Shown piece by piece: positions 2,188 through 14,755 of a DNA stretch of 32,428 bases; the stretch's first letter is position 1; every line of letters starts with the position of its first letter. Under the pieces are notes generated by a model. It did not search any database, was not told the DNA's origin, and saw only the letters and a program-made list of their open reading frames with translations. Source of the stretch: a virus; the IMG/VR virus record IMGVR_UViG_3300025012_001072, positions 1-32,428 of that record. One strand, 5' to 3'. The position numbers and the translations under genes were made by a program.

Positions 2188-2964
2188 ATGCCCACCCCCG
2201 CCCGCGACATAGCTCTGGACACTGAGCAGATCCTTACCGACGCCAGAGCCAAGGCCCTGCGAGCCGTGAAGAAAAGTGCCACTGCCGCCAACCTCAAAAA
2301 CCTTGAGGCTGCAGAGAAAGCTGTGCGCGACTTCCAGGCGGCCAAATCGGCGGAGGCGCATCCGGGCGAGCGGCGGTTGAAGAATATCCCGGACGTTCAC
2401 GCCTACCTCACCGAAGAAAAGAAGTACAAAGTCAGCGAACGGAAGCTCTATGAAGACAAACGCCTCATCATCAAACAGCCGGACGGCTCATACCTTGCCA
2501 AAGATGCTGAAGACTACGCCAACCGGTTTCTGCCGAAGCTGGACGGTTCCGACGATACCGAAGGCGGACTTGCCAAGATAAAGCAGCAGAAGGAAAACGA
2601 GCTTCTCGACGAAAAGATTCAGCGCGAACGGCGCCGCAACAAGGTAGAGACCGGCAAACTCATCCTTCGCAGCAGGGTAGACCAGCAGCTGGCCGCCCGT
2701 GCCGCCTTCATTTGTTCCGATCTGGACCTGTTCGGGCATAGCCAACTACCCGAGGTAGTAGAACAAGTTTTAGATGCCAAAGCCGCCCCACCGGAAGTCG
2801 CCGATTACATCATCGAACTCAAGACACGGCTGGTACCGGAAATGATTGCGGCCTTCCTGAAAGAAAAAAAGAAATGGATGGACCGCTACTCCCAGCCCCT
2901 GCAGTTTCAAGCGCCGCTGGCGTCGATCCTGGAAGAGATGGAAGAGGACCTTGAGGAAGAATAA
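2188..2964 (+). CDS. Probable terminase small subunit
   Basis: A 258-residue, highly charged, mostly helical protein immediately before the large terminase, which it overlaps by one base (TAATG). Position and composition support a DNA-packaging small subunit that would recognise the packaging site and hand DNA to the large subunit. It is longer than lambda Nu1 (181 aa). Residues about 66-100 (IPDVHAYL...KYKVSERKLYEDKRL) resemble an HTH/MerR-like segment, followed by a charged, probably coiled-coil region around 'KQQKENELLDEKIQRERRR'. The acidic tail ends EEMEEDLEEE. No strong family motif can be assigned by eye, so the name rests mainly on synteny. Confidence 0.65.
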   Translation: MPTPARDIALDTEQILTDARAKALRAVKKSATAANLKNLEAAEKAVRDFQAAKSAEAHPGERRLKNIPDVHAYLTEEKKYKVSERKLYEDKRLIIKQPDGSYLAKDAEDYANRFLPKLDGSDDTEGGLAKIKQQKENELLDEKIQRERRRNKVETGKLILRSRVDQQLAARAAFICSDLDLFGHSQLPEVVEQVLDAKAAPPEVADYIIELKTRLVPEMIAAFLKEKKKWMDRYSQPLQFQAPLASILEEMEEDLEEE

Positions 2965-4892
2965 TGCAAGCCCCCGCCGCCAACATAACGCAGCCATCCA
3001 TGTTCTTCCCCTTCCGCTTTTCAGCGGCCGAGCGCGACGTCTTCCGCGCCGAGGAAGACCTGAAGATCTCCGAATGGGCGGAAAACAACATCCACGTCCC
3101 CAGGGGTGCGCATGTGGGCCGGTACCGGAATGAGCTGAACCCCTACGGCGTCGACGTCATGGACTCCTGGCAACTGCCCCACGTGCGCGAAATCAACGTC
3201 TGCGCCCCACCCCAGGCCATGAAAACCATCACCGCTCACACCTGCGCCGGCTGGGCCTGGAAGAACGCCCCCGCCGAGATGATGATGATCATGCCGGACC
3301 GTGGCGAAGTCAAAGAAGTCATGGAAGACCGGCTCATTCCCATGCTGCAGAACTCTCCCGAGCTGGCCCGGCACCTGTCAGACAACCCTGACGACACCAG
3401 CAAATTTCACGTCAAGGGCAACCACGGCGCCGTCATTTACACCGCCTGGCCCCGCAGCGCCGCCAAGCTCGCCGGGAAGCCGGTCAAATACCTTTTTTTC
3501 GACGAAACCGACAAATACCCGGATTTCGTCGGCAAGGAGACCGACCCTTTCAACCTCGGCGAGAAACGCAAGCGTACCTTCCGCCACACCTACAAGATAT
3601 ATCGCAGTTCCACACCCACCGTCGAAACCGGACCGATCTGGCGTTTCCTCAACGGCTCCGCCGTCATCAAGCACTGGCAGGTTTACTGTCCCGACTGTGG
3701 CGTCGGCCACGTCATGCACCGCAAAAACCTGCGCTACCCCAAGGACAAGACCCCGGCCGAGATCATCCAGGGGAAGCTTGCCCGCTACGAATGCCCCAAC
3801 TGTGAAAGCAAGTGGACCGACACCAAGCGCAACTTCGCCACCCGCTGTGGCGAATGGATCATTGTCAAAGGACACGACGTCCCCTACTCCGTCAGCATAG
3901 GCTATCACCTGTCCGGTTGCGCCGTTATGGACATATCCCTGTCGGAAATCGCCAAAAAGGAAATAGAAGCCAAGACCGACACCGCCGCCGCCATCGACCT
4001 GGCAAACGACTACGACGCCGAACCCTATGTGCCGGACAAAAAACAGCGCAAAGAAGACAGCATTCTCCGGCTGATAGACATGTCCATGCCGCGCCACATA
4101 GTGCCGCGCAACGCCAACAGCCTAATAATTTGTGCCGACGCCCAGAAGATCGGCGCCCATTACGAAGTCCTCGCCTTCGGCTGGGGTCGCGAGCTTACAT
4201 GCTCGATCATCGATCACGGCTATGTCGAGGACGAAGACCACCTGAAGCGGATCGCCTCCCGCGACTGGTACGATGCCGACGGCAGACTGTACAAATGCCG
4301 CGCCGGCTTCATCGATTCCGGCGGCGGCACGTCCCCCAAGAACCCGAAGCATAGCCGAACCGACGAGATATACAGCTTCTGTATAGAAGACAGCTTCTGG
4401 CACCCGCTGAAGGGCAAACAGCGCCAAACCACCCCCGTCAACTGGACCCGACTCGACTACTTCCCCGGCCGTGAGGGGCAGAAGGTAGCCATTCCCGGCG
4501 GCCTCGTGCTCTATACCCTTGACACGACCTATTACAAGAACAAACTCGCCCGCAAGCTGCAGATAGACCCCGGCAACCCCGGCGCGATCCACCTGCACAA
4601 CGGCTTCACCGTCGAAGAAATGGAAGCCTGGACCGGCCCCCATTCCCTGCAGGAAGAGAGCTACAACCGCTGGAACGACTACGCAAAGCAGATGTGCGCC
4701 GAAGTCCAGGACGAACGCGGCCTCTGGGACAACCCGAAGCGGCTGCCAAACCATCACTGGGACATCGGCGTGTACCGCTATGCCGTTGCCGACCTGCTTT
4801 TCATCGGCGACGAGAAACCGGAACACGAAGTTACAGAAGATAGAGAGACGAAAAGACCTGAACCAAGACAACAGAAATCGCGGAGGTGGTAG
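2964..4892 (+). CDS. Terminase large subunit, lambda gpA family (ATPase-nuclease)
   Basis: A 642-residue protein with the architecture of lambda gpA, the motor that cuts concatemeric phage DNA and pumps it into the prohead. The 'FRAEEDLKISEWAENNI' opening is typical of the family. A Walker A-like segment APPQAMKT lies at 81-88, and Walker B is YLFFDETD at 176-183. Two CX2C pairs (CPDCG near 240 and CPNCE near 277) form the zinc-knuckle region usual in gpA proteins. The nuclease half begins near 'IICADAQ' and carries the 'VLAFGWGRE' strand. The residue before the Walker A lysine is Met rather than the usual Gly. Reading starts directly on the small subunit's stop. A cohesive-end (cos) strategy is expected from the family, but I cannot locate cos. 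Confidence 0.9.
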   Translation: MQAPAANITQPSMFFPFRFSAAERDVFRAEEDLKISEWAENNIHVPRGAHVGRYRNELNPYGVDVMDSWQLPHVREINVCAPPQAMKTITAHTCAGWAWKNAPAEMMMIMPDRGEVKEVMEDRLIPMLQNSPELARHLSDNPDDTSKFHVKGNHGAVIYTAWPRSAAKLAGKPVKYLFFDETDKYPDFVGKETDPFNLGEKRKRTFRHTYKIYRSSTPTVETGPIWRFLNGSAVIKHWQVYCPDCGVGHVMHRKNLRYPKDKTPAEIIQGKLARYECPNCESKWTDTKRNFATRCGEWIIVKGHDVPYSVSIGYHLSGCAVMDISLSEIAKKEIEAKTDTAAAIDLANDYDAEPYVPDKKQRKEDSILRLIDMSMPRHIVPRNANSLIICADAQKIGAHYEVLAFGWGRELTCSIIDHGYVEDEDHLKRIASRDWYDADGRLYKCRAGFIDSGGGTSPKNPKHSRTDEIYSFCIEDSFWHPLKGKQRQTTPVNWTRLDYFPGREGQKVAIPGGLVLYTLDTTYYKNKLARKLQIDPGNPGAIHLHNGFTVEEMEAWTGPHSLQEESYNRWNDYAKQMCAEVQDERGLWDNPKRLPNHHWDIGVYRYAVADLLFIGDEKPEHEVTEDRETKRPEPRQQKSRRW

Positions 4893-5091: not shown

Positions 5092-5121
5092 TTTACAACC
5101 CCTTATGAGTTTGGCTATAGT
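5092..5121 (+). promoter_or_regulatory. Sigma70-type promoter driving the putative small RNA
   Basis: TTTACA (5092-5097) and TATAGT (5116-5121) are separated by 18 bases. This is a good housekeeping-type -35/-10 pair in an otherwise gene-free stretch directly after a stop codon. The expected start is near 5127-5129, exactly at the beginning of the structured element. No operator is obvious nearby. Confidence 0.6.
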
Positions 5122-5127
5122 TGCTGC

Positions 5128-5302
5128 ATCCAAAGTCAGAAGGGGCGCCGCTCCCTACAAGCGGCACATTCGTTTCAAAGACACCGAACGCATAGTCTTT
5201 GAAACCGGCATTGCTTTCACCAAGCGTGCCCTGGATGCGCCCTAACCGTAAGGCGGGCGGCGGCTCTTTTGACCCGTGGATAGTCCAGGGCACGCTTTTT
5301 TT
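5128..5302 (+). ncRNA. Putative phage small RNA, about 175 nt
   Basis: The 250-base gap between coding regions contains, in order, a promoter, three inverted repeats and a U-tract terminator, with no credible reading frame. Hairpin 1 pairs GCCGC 5147-5151 with 5161-5165. Hairpin 2 pairs GTTTCAAAGAC 5172-5182 perfectly with 5195-5205 around a 12-nt loop. Hairpin 3 pairs AAGCGTGCCCTGGA 5222-5235 perfectly with 5284-5297 and encloses a GC-rich 48-nt insert, with a short CGCC/GGCG stem possible inside it; a run of T follows. The unit lies between the packaging genes and a set of micro-genes. No known RNA family is recognised. Alternatives are a long attenuator for the downstream genes, or a cos/pac structure. 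Confidence 0.55.
5222..5302 (+). terminator. Rho-independent terminator with a long closed insert
   Basis: A perfect 14-bp inverted repeat (5222-5235 with 5284-5297) merges directly into TTTTTTT (5296-5302). The 48-nt interior is unusually large for a terminator and is GC-rich, so the arms probably close a composite domain. Confidence 0.65.
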
Positions 5303-5335
5303 GTGCTCAAAATCCAAAGTCAAAGGAGGTGCATC

Positions 5336-5500
5336 ATGAAGAAAGGGAAAGCCAAGACAGCGGAAGAGAAAATCAAAAAGATGGAGCTGCTGATGACCAG
5401 CGGAATGGATGAGGCACTTATTTTTGCGGCCTTCTGTTTCATCCTTTTCCCGGCACAGTGGGGCAGGTACCACAGAAACACAGCGGGAGGTGGCGCATGA
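5336..5500 (+). CDS. Micro-protein with one membrane-like segment
   Basis: A 54-residue product, MKKGKAKTAEEKIKKMELLM and onward. The start is fixed by a consensus AAAGGAGGT (5322-5330) five bases before ATG. A strongly basic/charged N-terminus precedes a single hydrophobic stretch, EALIFAAFCFILF (residues about 26-38), then a short polar tail. A cytoplasmic N-terminus with one membrane span is likely. The stop overlaps the next start (ATGA). No family is recognised. Its place in a three-gene coupled cassette suggests an accessory function such as exclusion or membrane modulation, which is inference only. Confidence 0.6.
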   Translation: MKKGKAKTAEEKIKKMELLMTSGMDEALIFAAFCFILFPAQWGRYHRNTAGGGA

Positions 5501-5655
5501 AAGGCCGGAATATGGAAGCCAAATTGCAGACCGCCGAGCGGATCATGGGCTTAAACGTTGACACCGGGGCCAAGGTGCTGGCAATCTTCCTGTTGTTTGT
5601 ACCGAAATTGTCGAAGACCGTAACCCGCAGCTTGGTGTCCGGAGGTGTGGCATGA
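5497..5655 (+). CDS. Second micro-protein with a hydrophobic segment
   Basis: A 52-residue product starting at an ATG that overlaps the previous stop by ATGA, with GGAGGTGG just upstream (5488-5495). The hydrophobic core VLAIFLLFVP (about residues 27-36) is flanked by lysines and could be a short membrane span or an amphipathic helix. It ends by overlapping the next gene with ATGA. Unrecognised. Confidence 0.55.
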   Translation: MKGRNMEAKLQTAERIMGLNVDTGAKVLAIFLLFVPKLSKTVTRSLVSGGVA

Positions 5656-5954
5656 GCAGGCATGAAATGTTTGAAGAAGTTCAGGATTCGCCGGTAGGCT
5701 TTCCCTCACAGGATGAGTTTATGACGGCATTTCAGGACATGATAATGGCGAAGCTTGCGGGCGGTTTTCCCATGGCACGGCTGCGCGAGATGGACCATAC
5801 CGTGACGGTCCAAAAGGGAAGTACAACCTACTCGATGGTGGTCAATATTTCGGAGTTCGAATCTGATCCAGGTGCGCCGCTGTTGGTGATCATAAAACAG
5901 CCGAACATCGCTGAAAGGAAGGTCGGATATCAATTCAGCGGGCTTTTACACTAA
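5652..5954 (+). CDS. Hypothetical protein, 100 aa
   Basis: A soluble-looking protein translated by ATGA coupling from the previous gene, with GGAGGTG (5640-5646) before the start. The N-terminal part (MSRHEMFEEVQDSPVGFPSQ) is polar. The C-terminal part (HTVTVQKGSTTYSMVVNISE, then PLLVIIKQP) has an alternating pattern suggesting beta-strands. It is the last gene of a three-gene coupled cassette and is closed by a strong hairpin starting at the base after its stop. No family is recognised. Confidence 0.6.
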   Translation: MSRHEMFEEVQDSPVGFPSQDEFMTAFQDMIMAKLAGGFPMARLREMDHTVTVQKGSTTYSMVVNISEFESDPGAPLLVIIKQPNIAERKVGYQFSGLLH

Positions 5955-5990
5955 GGGGTCGGCGCAAAATTGCGCCGACCCCCCCTAGTT
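5955..5990 (+). terminator. Strong hairpin terminator after the micro-gene cassette
   Basis: A 28-base near-perfect palindrome (13-bp arms 5955-5967 and 5970-5982, AA centre) starts at the base after the stop codon and is followed by CCCCTAGTTTTCTT. Its centre contains the 16-mer GGCGCAAAATTGCGCC that recurs at 6002, so the element may be both terminator and protein-binding site. Confidence 0.6.
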
Positions 5991-6017
5991 TTCTTCTACT
6001 GGGCGCAAAATTGCGCC
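5961..6017. promoter_or_regulatory. Twin 16-bp palindromes upstream of rha: likely operators
   Basis: GGCGCAAAATTGCGCC occurs twice, at 5961-5976 and 6002-6017, 41 bases apart (about four helical turns, so on the same DNA face). The second copy ends about 13 bases before the AGGAGG of the rha-like gene. Identical dyads placed just before a regulatory gene suggest binding sites for a dimeric repressor, possibly autoregulation. The first copy is also the core of a terminator-like hairpin. Confidence 0.55.
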
Positions 6018-6041
6018 GAGTTAAAGACTAAGGAGGATAAA

Positions 6042-6839
6042 ATGGATCAACTTGTAACTTTTGAGAAAGGGGAAGCCCTAACAAATACGCTGATTATTGC
6101 CGAGGGCACCCAAAATGAACATGCTAGTGTTATAAATCTGGTCAGAAAATATACTTCAGATTTGGAAGAATTTGGCCCTTTGCGATTTGAAATCGCGAAG
6201 GGTAAGCCTCTTCCCCAGGGAGGGTTTGCAAAGTCAACCGAATACGCCCTTCTTAATGAACAACAAGCCACTTTACTTTTGACCTACATGAAAAACACTC
6301 CTATCATTCGAAAATTCAAAAAGTCTCTGGTGCGAGCTTTCTTTGAACTATCACGTGAACAGGTATTTTTCGAGAACAGCAGGAGCGTCAACGTCAACAT
6401 GGCCCACACCCGCGGCATTACCAATCCTCACGGCCTCGATATCCGCTACACTCTCGACCTTACCAAGATTGTTATGCACCCCACCCGCACCAGCATCACG
6501 ATTCTTGAGCGTCTCGCCGGAGTGCCGATGGATGATATCTTGGCGGAGATGCCCACGGTCGGCCTCGGCAACCCCCACGCTTCAGTTTTGGCCTTCAGCA
6601 AGGAACGCATCAAAGAATCTGCCGGCGCACGGGTGGAAACCGCCGCCGTATATGCAGCCTACCGGGAATATTGTGCGAAAGAAGGCATTCTTCCCATGCC
6701 CATGAACAACTTTGGCCGCAGTCTCAGGCTGCTTTTGCCGTTTATTGAGGATGCACGCGGCCCCTCCGCTGGTGGGCACCGTCCCCGCTGTTACGCAAAT
6801 ATTGCACTTGCAGAGGCGAAAGACCCTCTGCAGCACTGA
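6042..6839 (+). CDS. Rha-family phage regulatory protein / antirepressor-like
   Basis: A 265-residue protein. ATG 6042 is chosen because AGGAGG (6031-6036) sits five bases upstream; an in-frame TTG at 5970 lies inside a palindrome and is unlikely. Residues about 20-112 follow the Rha pattern: 'H.SVI.LVRKY..DLEEFG' for the N-terminal helix, then 'EYALLNEQQATLLLTYMKNT' and 'IRKFKKSLVRAFFELSREQ'. The last 70 residues (ETAAVYAAYREYCAKEGILP, then FGRSLRLLLP) resemble the winged-helix C-terminal domain of phage D5-like primases and antirepressors. Rha proteins are known to interfere with phage growth when host integration factor is missing. The first third is visibly more AT-rich than the rest, suggesting domain shuffling. 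Confidence 0.75.
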   Translation: MDQLVTFEKGEALTNTLIIAEGTQNEHASVINLVRKYTSDLEEFGPLRFEIAKGKPLPQGGFAKSTEYALLNEQQATLLLTYMKNTPIIRKFKKSLVRAFFELSREQVFFENSRSVNVNMAHTRGITNPHGLDIRYTLDLTKIVMHPTRTSITILERLAGVPMDDILAEMPTVGLGNPHASVLAFSKERIKESAGARVETAAVYAAYREYCAKEGILPMPMNNFGRSLRLLLPFIEDARGPSAGGHRPRCYANIALAEAKDPLQH

Positions 6840-6877: not shown

Positions 6878-6903
6878 CCCGCCTTAAAAAACCCTGTCAA
6901 CCT

Positions 6904-6960
6904 AAAATGACCGCAAATAACCCCAAATGACCGCAAATAAGGCATAAATACCCGCAAATA
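6904..6960. repeat. Iteron-like direct repeats, 20-21 bp period
   Basis: AAATGACCGCAAATAA occurs at 6905-6920 and 6925-6940. The core CCGCAAATA recurs a third time at 6952-6960. The spacing of 20-21 bp is two helical turns, so a protein would bind on one face. The tract is AT-rich and non-coding, lying between rha and gpW. Iterons for replication initiation or a repressor array are both possible. Confidence 0.55.
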
Positions 6961-6980
6961 GCCTCAAATCCCAAAATCCC

Positions 6981-7030
6981 AAAAAACCGCCCTTATAATT
7001 TCGACATTATCGAAAAAAGGGCGGTTTTTT
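6981..7030. terminator. Bidirectional terminator-like hairpin abutting the gpW start
   Basis: AAAAAACCGCCC (6981-6992) is perfectly inverted at GGGCGGTTTTTT (7019-7030), and an inner ATAAT/ATTAT pairing continues the stem. A-tract on one side and T-tract on the other make it terminator-like in both directions. It ends one base before the ATG at 7032, so it also buries that gene's ribosome site (AAGGGCGG). Confidence 0.6.
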
Positions 7031-7031
7031 C

Positions 7032-7289
7032 ATGGCGACACCCGTAGTTTTCACAACATGGTCGGCACTCTATACAGCGTTGCTGAACGCCTACGCCGAC
7101 TTTGTCGCCAACCGCATTCAGACCGCACAATACCAAATCAACACCGGCACCACCGTCCGCAGTTTTACCTTCCAGGACCCCGACAAGATTCTTAAAGCCA
7201 TAAAAGAGGTCAAACCGCTGGCCGATATGGAAAGCGGCGCCGCCGTGGGCCGCACCTTTGCCAAAAACGGAGGTGGTCGATGGCAATAA
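7032..7289 (+). CDS. gpW-like head-tail connector (head completion) protein
   Basis: An 85-residue protein between terminase and portal, the position of W in lambda (A-W-B). 'WSALYTALLNAYADFVANRI' forms a helix, 'YQINTGTTVRSFTFQDPDKI' a beta hairpin, and 'LKAIKEVKPLAD' a final helix. This helix-hairpin-helix order matches gpW (68 aa), which seals the packaged head before tail attachment. It overlaps the portal gene by 10 bases. The start codon directly follows a strong hairpin, so its translation or transcription may be controlled. Synteny plus pattern; no catalytic motif applies. Confidence 0.7.
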   Translation: MATPVVFTTWSALYTALLNAYADFVANRIQTAQYQINTGTTVRSFTFQDPDKILKAIKEVKPLADMESGAAVGRTFAKNGGGRWQ

Positions 7290-9118
7290 CACGCCGCTCC
7301 GGTCTCTTTGCCCCGTCGAGCCTGCTTACCAGTGGCAGCCGCAAAGAGCGCCAGTATGCCGCCGCCAAGGTCACCCGCCTCACCGGCGACTGGATCCCCG
7401 CCAACCAGGATGTCAACACCATCATTCGCACCTCGGCGCCGATGCTTCGCGCCCGAATTCGCCAGCTAATCCGTGATTTTCCCTACTTCGACCGCGCCGC
7501 CGACATTCTGGTCGACCTTACCGTCGGCGACGGCATGCCGTTTCAGTCGCGGGTGCTGAATCCCGCCTGGAAACCGGGCAGCAAGGAAAAGAAATTTGAC
7601 CGCCAGGCCTGCCAGAGCATCGAAGACGCCATCTCCTGGTGGATGGAAGAAGCCGACGCATCGGGCCGGATGCACTACAACGAAATGGAACGGCTTGCCA
7701 AGCGGCAGGATGCGGAAAGCGGCGAGTTCCTGTTTGTCAAAACCATCCTCAAGGACAAGAAGCGCTTCATTCCCTACTCGCTGATGCCCTACGAAATCGA
7801 CTGGCTATCGTCCAGTTTTTCGCAACTTGCCGCCGGCAACGAAATCGACCAGGGCAAGGAATTCAACCCCCACACCGGCCGGATCGTCGCCTATCACTTC
7901 GCCGTTCCGACCGGGTACGGCGGCTATTCGCTCACCGCGTCCACCAGGACCATCCGCGTCCCTGCCGAATACGTTATCAACGGCTTCGAAACCCTGCGCC
8001 CCGGCCAACTGCATGGCGTCTCCGATTTCGTCACCGCCGTCATGATCGCCCACGACCTGGGGGACTACATCGATGCGACCATCGACACCGCCAAGCTGGC
8101 CGCCAAATACCTCGCCATTGTCGAAACCGTAGACGCCGCCGGCTTTCAAAACCTTCGCACCCAGGCAGGAACCGGGGCCGATACCGGCAAGAAGCTTGAA
8201 CACCTGGAAAACGCCATTATCGAGTACCTGCGCCCCGGTGAGAAAATCAATTTTGCCAAAAACGACAGTATCGCCCAGTCCTTCGACCCCTTTACCAAGT
8301 TCGTGCTGCACATGCTGTCCGTCGCCACCGGCGTTCCCTTCTCCATCCTGACCGGCAATTACGGCGAGTACAACTACACCACCCTGCGCGGCGAGCGTCT
8401 CGACACCCGCAGGATCTTCTTGCCGCAGCAGAACCGTCAGGTCCGCCAGTTCTCCAGCCCCGTTATCCGCGACGTCATTGACTGGTCCGTCATGGCAGGC
8501 CGGATTATCCTGCCCGGCTACTGGAAAAACCAGCGTGCCTTCTGGCGGGGCGTTTTTATAACCCCCGGCGGCGAGCCCATTGACCCATTGCGCGAAAGCA
8601 AGGCAAACCGCGACGACATGGCCGCCGGCCTCCAGTCACCCCAGGAGATAGTGGCCCGGCGCGGCCGCGACCTCGAAGACGTGTACGACGAGCTTGCCGA
8701 AGCTCAGGAAATGGCCCGCGAGCGTGGCCTTATCTTCGATATCAACACCGATACCGCCATGGCGAATAATCCGGCGGCGGTCGGCGCTTCCGAAACTGGA
8801 GACGAGGAAGGAACACCCGAACAGCCACGAACTGACAAAACAGCCCCCGCACCAGGGGCACAGACTATTGTTTCAATCAAGGAACAAACCGACGCTTACG
8901 GTGTTGCCGTTAGGGCCGGGGCACTTACACCACAAATAGAAGACGAAGAATTCTTCAGAAAGCAGTCAGGCCTTCCCACCTTATCGAACAAGGTTAAAGA
9001 AGCTTGGGTGCAGGATGGCGGAACCCGTAGACCTATAACATTGAAATCCGGAGAAGCCTTTGACGCTGAACAGGATCAAATAGCCGGCACAAGTACGGAA
9101 GAAACCTCGGAGGAGTAA
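7280..9118 (+). CDS. Portal protein, lambda gpB family
   Basis: A 612-residue protein, the dodecameric ring through which DNA enters and leaves the capsid. 'RLTGDWIPANQDVNTIIRTS' near residues 33-52, 'LRARIRQLIRDFPYFDRAAD' next, and 'LTVGDGMPFQSRV' are characteristic of the lambda-type portal. So are 'EIDWL', 'NPHTGRIVAYHF' (near 190-202), 'RVPAEYVINGFETLRPGQLHG' and 'SVATGVPFSILTGNYGEYNY' (near 344-363). The tail from about 495 is acidic and low in complexity. It overlaps gpW, and the capsid fusion gene follows after three bases. Confidence 0.92.
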   Translation: MAITRRSGLFAPSSLLTSGSRKERQYAAAKVTRLTGDWIPANQDVNTIIRTSAPMLRARIRQLIRDFPYFDRAADILVDLTVGDGMPFQSRVLNPAWKPGSKEKKFDRQACQSIEDAISWWMEEADASGRMHYNEMERLAKRQDAESGEFLFVKTILKDKKRFIPYSLMPYEIDWLSSSFSQLAAGNEIDQGKEFNPHTGRIVAYHFAVPTGYGGYSLTASTRTIRVPAEYVINGFETLRPGQLHGVSDFVTAVMIAHDLGDYIDATIDTAKLAAKYLAIVETVDAAGFQNLRTQAGTGADTGKKLEHLENAIIEYLRPGEKINFAKNDSIAQSFDPFTKFVLHMLSVATGVPFSILTGNYGEYNYTTLRGERLDTRRIFLPQQNRQVRQFSSPVIRDVIDWSVMAGRIILPGYWKNQRAFWRGVFITPGGEPIDPLRESKANRDDMAAGLQSPQEIVARRGRDLEDVYDELAEAQEMARERGLIFDINTDTAMANNPAAVGASETGDEEGTPEQPRTDKTAPAPGAQTIVSIKEQTDAYGVAVRAGALTPQIEDEEFFRKQSGLPTLSNKVKEAWVQDGGTRRPITLKSGEAFDAEQDQIAGTSTEETSEE

Positions 9119-14525: not shown

Positions 14526-14755
14526 AGATAACGTTCACCCAATACCGCGAACTAAAAAGCGGCCGCACCGTCAAGCCCGCCGACACCATGGAATCGATCA
14601 ACCCCGACGAAATCGCCGACATGCAGGCATACGTCAATAATGGCATTGCCATTGAGAACCGGGACTCGGGAACCGGGACTCGCAAAGCCCCCACGAATCC
14701 CGAATCCCGAATCCCGAATCCCGAAACCAAGGAGGTGACTACCGATGGCCCGTAA
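14522..14755 (+). CDS. Small hypothetical protein ending in repeat-encoded residues
   Basis: A 77-residue frame coupled to the holin by ATGA, with AAAGGAGGA upstream. The first 45 residues (MKITFTQYRELKSGRTVKPA, then ESINPDEIADMQAYVNNGIA) look like a genuine protein. From about residue 46 the sequence (ENRDSGTGTRKAP, then NPESRIPNPE) is the translation of a heptamer nucleotide repeat. The repeat has a period not divisible by three, so changes in copy number would change the frame. It overlaps the tail tube start by 11 bases. Confidence 0.55.
   Translation: MKITFTQYRELKSGRTVKPADTMESINPDEIADMQAYVNNGIAIENRDSGTGTRKAPTNPESRIPNPETKEVTTDGP
14655..14722. repeat. Inverted cluster of GGGACTC and (GAATCCC)4 heptamers
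   Basis: One arm (14659-14681) holds GGGACTCGGG and GGGACTCG. The other is four exact tandem GAATCCC units at 14695-14701, 14702-14708, 14709-14715 and 14716-14722. The arms are roughly complementary and could fold into a hairpin. This is the largest member of the dispersed repeat family here and it lies in coding sequence. Confidence 0.7.

Follow-up and report, generated by a model that had tools for sequence, protein, structure and literature searches.

In the RCd22/abiF prophage locus of C. difficile, a single promoter gives rise both to a short structured RNA that ends at an intrinsic terminator and to a rarer read-through mRNA (PMC12373285). Type III toxin–antitoxin (TA) loci also place an RNA upstream of a gene, with an intrinsic terminator between the two (PMC5086642). 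The locus described here lies in a 32,428-nt stretch of DNA (the window) that comes from a virus record and belongs to a tailed phage of temperate type. Like the RCd22 leader (RF03085, PMC12373285), it presents a promoter-like site, a candidate structured RNA, an intrinsic terminator, a ribosome-binding site and a gene on one strand, with no promoter-like site past the terminator, and it occupies a phage accessory locus. It differs from RCd22/abiF in that the unit has no abiF motif (RF03085) by Rfam search, its downstream genes have no Abi domain, and three small genes of no known family follow, as against one gene there. With the type III systems ToxIN, CptIN and TenpIN (PMC5086642) it shares the order RNA, terminator, gene, and model folds would allow a pseudoknot; however, the phage unit has neither a tandem repeat array nor a ToxN-type protein. 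The likeness to RCd22/abiF and to type III TA is one of layout only, and membership in either fails.

We give just short of an even chance to the reading that the unit is a terminator-gated structured 5′ leader, or attenuator, of an accessory (moron-type) operon, o54-o52-o100. This is the simpler account because an operon that lacks a promoter-like site follows the unit directly and is oriented the same way. The operon's first gene, o54 (5336–5500, + strand), encodes 54 aa with one hydrophobic stretch and has no family match. The start of o52 (5497–5655, +; 52 aa, also with one hydrophobic stretch) overlaps the o54 stop, and the start of o100 (5652–5954, +; 100 aa, no family match) overlaps the o52 stop. 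A terminator-like hairpin at 5955–5982 (+) closes the operon. Only 34 nt separate the end of the upstream terminator at 5302 from the o54 ATG at 5336, and a strong Shine-Dalgarno sequence, AAAGGAGG, lies in between. The palindrome GGCGCAAAATTGCGCC occurs twice hereabouts, at 5961–5978 in the terminator after o100 and at 6002–6019 just 5′ of a Rha-family gene, and the pair is a possible operator. This terminator/palindrome pair (5955–6019) is the strongest-folding stretch of the window among 864 stretches on both strands.

The unit had been taken, in an earlier sequence-only reading, for a promoter, two hairpins and a terminator making up a candidate new phage small RNA. Its terminator held up fully: a perfect 14-bp stem (5222–5235/5284–5297) encloses a 48-nt structured insert and runs into seven T residues (5296–5302), so that the intrinsic terminator covers 5222–5302 (+). 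In 2000 local dinucleotide shuffles, no perfect inverted repeat of 14 bp arose within 80 nt. The two local hairpins proposed upstream of it were also found on the + strand, one at 5147–5165 (6 bp, 7-nt loop) and one at 5172–5205 (11 bp, 12-nt loop), but the predicted minimum free energy (MFE) structure is not a row of hairpins. It is a single long-range fold spanning 5135–5275 (+), in which 5135–5159 pairs with 5253–5275. For 5128–5302 the MFE is −76.6 kcal/mol, with z about −5.3, and the stability ranks sixth among the 864 stretches. The three-hairpin fold with the terminator is predicted at −71.4 kcal/mol, pseudoknots not being scored. Forcing the terminator costs 5.2 kcal/mol, and the MFE fold is predicted to abolish the terminator hairpin; the second local hairpin is present in both folds. 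The long-range helix and the terminator hairpin exclude each other except in a pseudoknot, the one arrangement in which modelling suggests that the two could coexist. An inverted repeat not due to chance, the z-score of −5.3 and two predicted, mutually exclusive folds of similar energy argue for a leader.

Rfam 15 gave no family at the curated (gathering) threshold, and a permissive search was empty save for one chance match, which agrees with the original remark that the RNA resembles no known family. Integron attC sites, 6S RNA and phi29 pRNA were weighed as well and discarded; the formal test for them was the Rfam search.

The promoter is the weaker end of the unit. What had been called a good −35/−10 pair does exist as TTTACA-N18-TATAGT at 5092–5121 (+), with 10 of 12 matches and a start that would fall near 5128, but its quality is unremarkable: a scan for sigma-70-type sites found five in 4 kb, where shuffling leads one to expect 2.1. 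The 10/12 match is therefore weak evidence, not significant alone, and it counts against a leader. Between 5122 and 5336 the same scan, limited to sigma-70-type sites, found no promoter-like site. Thus expression of o54-o52-o100 must cross the terminator or use a promoter type outside the scan. A terminator lies between the promoter-like site and the first gene with no later sigma-70-type site, the arrangement of an attenuator. Against a leader, a promoter of unscanned type could lie just 5′ of o54. Terminators between phage operons can also be plain insulators, which we count on the same side.

If the unit is a leader, transcription from about 5128 would mostly end at 5302. The product would be ∼175 nt long, and o54-o52-o100 would be expressed only on read-through. 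Read-through might come, for example, from phage antitermination, from transcripts arriving from the terminase genes, or from a leader in which the long-range fold (5135–5159 with 5253–5275) replaces the terminator hairpin. The presence of a promoter-like site, a strongly folding RNA and a terminator makes a separate transcript of that length plausible.

A further layer of control may be hinted at by repeats. The 11-bp direct repeats said to bracket the unit are indeed there as exact copies of ATCCAAAGTCA, at 5128–5138 and 5312–5322 (both +), and the window has no others even with one mismatch allowed. Similarity extends from the first copy to 5148 (17/21 against the second copy), and the second continues into the o54 Shine-Dalgarno sequence (5322–5329). 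A repeat of 11 nt arises in 2.6% of 400-nt shuffles, so that the pair is only mildly unusual. Within the terminator insert lies an anti-repeat, CTCTTTTGAC (5264–5273, +), which is a 10-bp complement of 5135–5144 and of 5319–5328; its partner could be either the first repeat copy or the o54 Shine-Dalgarno region, which is part of the second. How significant this complementarity is depends on the test, P ranging from 0.0004 to 0.045. The energy of the anti-repeat/Shine-Dalgarno duplex was matched by 2–4 of 5000 shuffles, whereas a gapless helix was reached in 4.5% of them (P 0.045). Among 28 translation starts compared, o54 came first by z, not alone (P 0.02). Pairing of the anti-repeat with the o54 Shine-Dalgarno sequence is suggestive, not established: the 10-bp pairing with both repeat copies and the duplex energy speak for a leader, the values of 0.045 and 0.02 against it. 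More weakly than for termination, we infer that the anti-repeat would mask the o54 Shine-Dalgarno sequence in read-through RNA, with the first repeat copy as its competitor.

The assertion that no reading frame fits the unit did not survive. An ORF of 46 codons runs from an ATG at 5105 to a TAA at 5245 (5105–5245, +), covers both local hairpins and is a possible gene remnant. The codon usage of its last 31 codons is typical of the phage, at the 41st percentile of in-frame segments. Stop-free off-frame segments reached the same score in 4.4% of cases, shuffled regions in 0.2%. This coding-like character tells against a leader and raises a possible, though clearly less probable, alternative: that there is no functional RNA here, only a short gene or 5′-truncated remnant at the edge of an insertion (see below), followed by an ordinary insulating terminator, the hairpins being incidental. 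The ORF does sit at an insertion boundary, and terminators overlapping gene ends are common, which we count in favor of this alternative. But no start codon of the ORF is preceded by a Shine-Dalgarno sequence, and no homologue was found, including in IMG/VR with the extended 46-codon frame and in 375 genomes of the Pseudodesulfovibrio phylum. The region also folds more stably than expected, and the following operon would be left without a visible promoter. A transcript from 5128 would miss the ATG of this ORF. One match of the 46-aa product, to CAT_RBD, had an E value of 0.13 and was not significant.

The small RNA originally proposed retains its promoter-like site, its strong folding and its terminator, but as a free-standing RNA it is no longer the leading reading, given its leader position, the ORF and the lack of a diverged homologue among the collections searched. 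We consider it unlikely that the unit encodes a separate small RNA that acts in trans on mRNAs of the phage or its host, and less likely than either a leader or a remnant with a terminator. The three elements do come in a fitting order and size. Phage regulatory RNAs are well documented (PMC12197685), and prophage transcriptomes hold many unassigned non-coding RNAs (PMC7067206). The unit resembles OOP, sar, PreS and VpdS (PMC12197685) in being phage-encoded, short and terminator-ended, and differs from them in having no target or sequence relation and in its leader position in an operon. That position, together with the lack of an Rfam family or a homologue, speaks against action in trans, as does its pairing with translation starts of the phage, which does not clearly exceed chance.

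Could the RNA instead be the antitoxin of an RNA–protein TA-like module, whether type III-like, AbiF-like or type I-like, with o54, o52 and o100 as the toxin side? We regard this as very improbable. The RNA–terminator–gene order is that of type III modules (PMC5086642) and of RCd22/abiF (PMC12373285), o54 and o52 encode short proteins, each with a single hydrophobic stretch, and over 10 bp the RNA is complementary to the o54 Shine-Dalgarno sequence. In type I TA systems with a trans-encoded antitoxin, such as tisB/IstR-1 and zorO/OrzO (PMC8309996), a short RNA lies near a small hydrophobic ORF and has complementarity near the ribosome-binding site, a pattern that the present locus may share; here, however, the layout is tandem on the same strand, no known toxin family is represented and the complementarity is statistically weak. 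Protein family searches with o54, o52 and o100 found neither a known toxin, Abi or defence domain nor a ToxN/CptN/TenpN-type endoribonuclease. Nor does the RNA contain tandem repeats or a matching RNA motif, and it is not antisense to the gene; the complementarity is only modestly significant. A bolder extension of the leader reading, which we hold to be improbable, is that this is a new kind of RNA-gated phage accessory module. Its leader would be pseudoknotted, its anti-repeat contested by an upstream decoy ribosome-binding region and the real one downstream, and it would control or neutralise an operon of small hydrophobic proteins in a variable locus between terminase and portal.

The genomic setting bears on these readings. 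Upstream of the terminase genes is a homologue of the DNA polymerase III beta clamp (sliding-clamp-like, 156–1292) that has all three domains; it is followed by a gene for a DUF5131 protein, and a 258-aa gene is directly 5′ of the terminase. After the GpA-type large terminase gene (TerL, 2964–4892) comes a 63-aa HTH-like gene and then the studied unit. A lambda-type portal gene lies at 7280–9118, and capsid, tape measure and tyrosine integrase genes lie beyond it. One contig (L001) is 100% identical to the window over the unit; apart from it, the closest relatives are two phages (L002 and L003) whose terminases are 72–73% identical to that of the window. Both lack the block from 5085 to ∼6885, which holds the RNA unit, o54, o52, o100 and the Rha-family gene, and which is flanked on one side by the TerL/HTH genes and on the other by the gpW-position gene adjoining the portal gene. 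In these two phages, no more than ∼200 nt lies between the HTH gene and the 85-aa gene that precedes the portal. The studied unit therefore lies at the left edge of an accessory insertion, outside the packaging module proper. The unit does adjoin packaging genes, as first noted, but any link to packaging is positional only, since neither of the two nearest phages has the insertion.

A more distant relative (L132) carries an unrelated gene set of ∼2.2 kb at the same place. Comparison of the window with L002, L003, L132, L138 and L143 identifies the interval between the HTH and pre-portal genes as a variable accessory locus of this phage group. The absence of the block from L002 and L003, the stop-to-start overlapping genes and a layout that experiments have demonstrated for RCd22/abiF favor a leader. 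By eye, the genes inserted in L132 are ParB-like, methylase-like and radical-SAM-like. The Rha-family regulator encoded at 6042–6839 in the window has a C-terminal part weakly resembling phage/plasmid primase C-terminal (Pox_D5-like) domains, making it a mixed-domain regulator within the accessory insertion.

We searched for diverged homologues of the unit in Rfam, among phages and plasmids, in IMG/VR and in 395 genomes from a single phylum, and found none. IMG/VR protein scans (with TerL, o54, o100, the 46-codon frame, the L002 TerL and the capsid protein) recovered the unit only in the identical contig; relatives were without it. A DNA pattern for the second local hairpin hit 29 stretches in IMG/VR, with convincing flanking similarity only in that same contig. 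DNA similarity searches of phages and plasmids gave nothing or chance fragments, and one 71% plasmid match falls in the Rha gene. Scanning genome contigs with TerL found no relative, and with DUF5131 only relatives at 31–43%, in many phyla. In ∼395 genomes from the phylum to which a Pseudodesulfovibrio genome belongs, TerL relatives reached up to 43%, and queries with TerL, the unit DNA and o100 found no convincing RNA or operon homologue. A 34-nt DNA match of 88% in one genome, G270 (L110), lies within a subtilisin-like peptidase gene and is due to chance; 81% matches in L108 and L109 are start-codon look-alikes before unrelated genes.

If the unit is a leader, an unrelated sequence would join the RNA- and terminator-gated accessory operons of phages, in the layout of type III and AbiF systems, and the interval between TerL and portal in this phage group would be a place to seek accessory genes. 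If it is only a remnant with a terminator, it would serve as a warning that a strong folding score beside a terminator does not amount to a small RNA.

Two other regions of the window drew attention. The sequence upstream of the 85-aa gene was compared among the window (6885–7031), L002 (7140–7285), L003 (905–1074) and L143 (5036–5190). These regions have in common a TGTCAACC block and short A-rich direct repeats whose sequences differ, and a TATAnT element in or near a hairpin abutting the start codon. The region is a candidate for a regulated head-gene promoter or for a terminase or regulator site. Farther on, at 14656–14715, several copies of the 7-nt unit TCCCGAA form a tandem repeat, within a strongly folding stretch, just 5′ of a gene at 14745.
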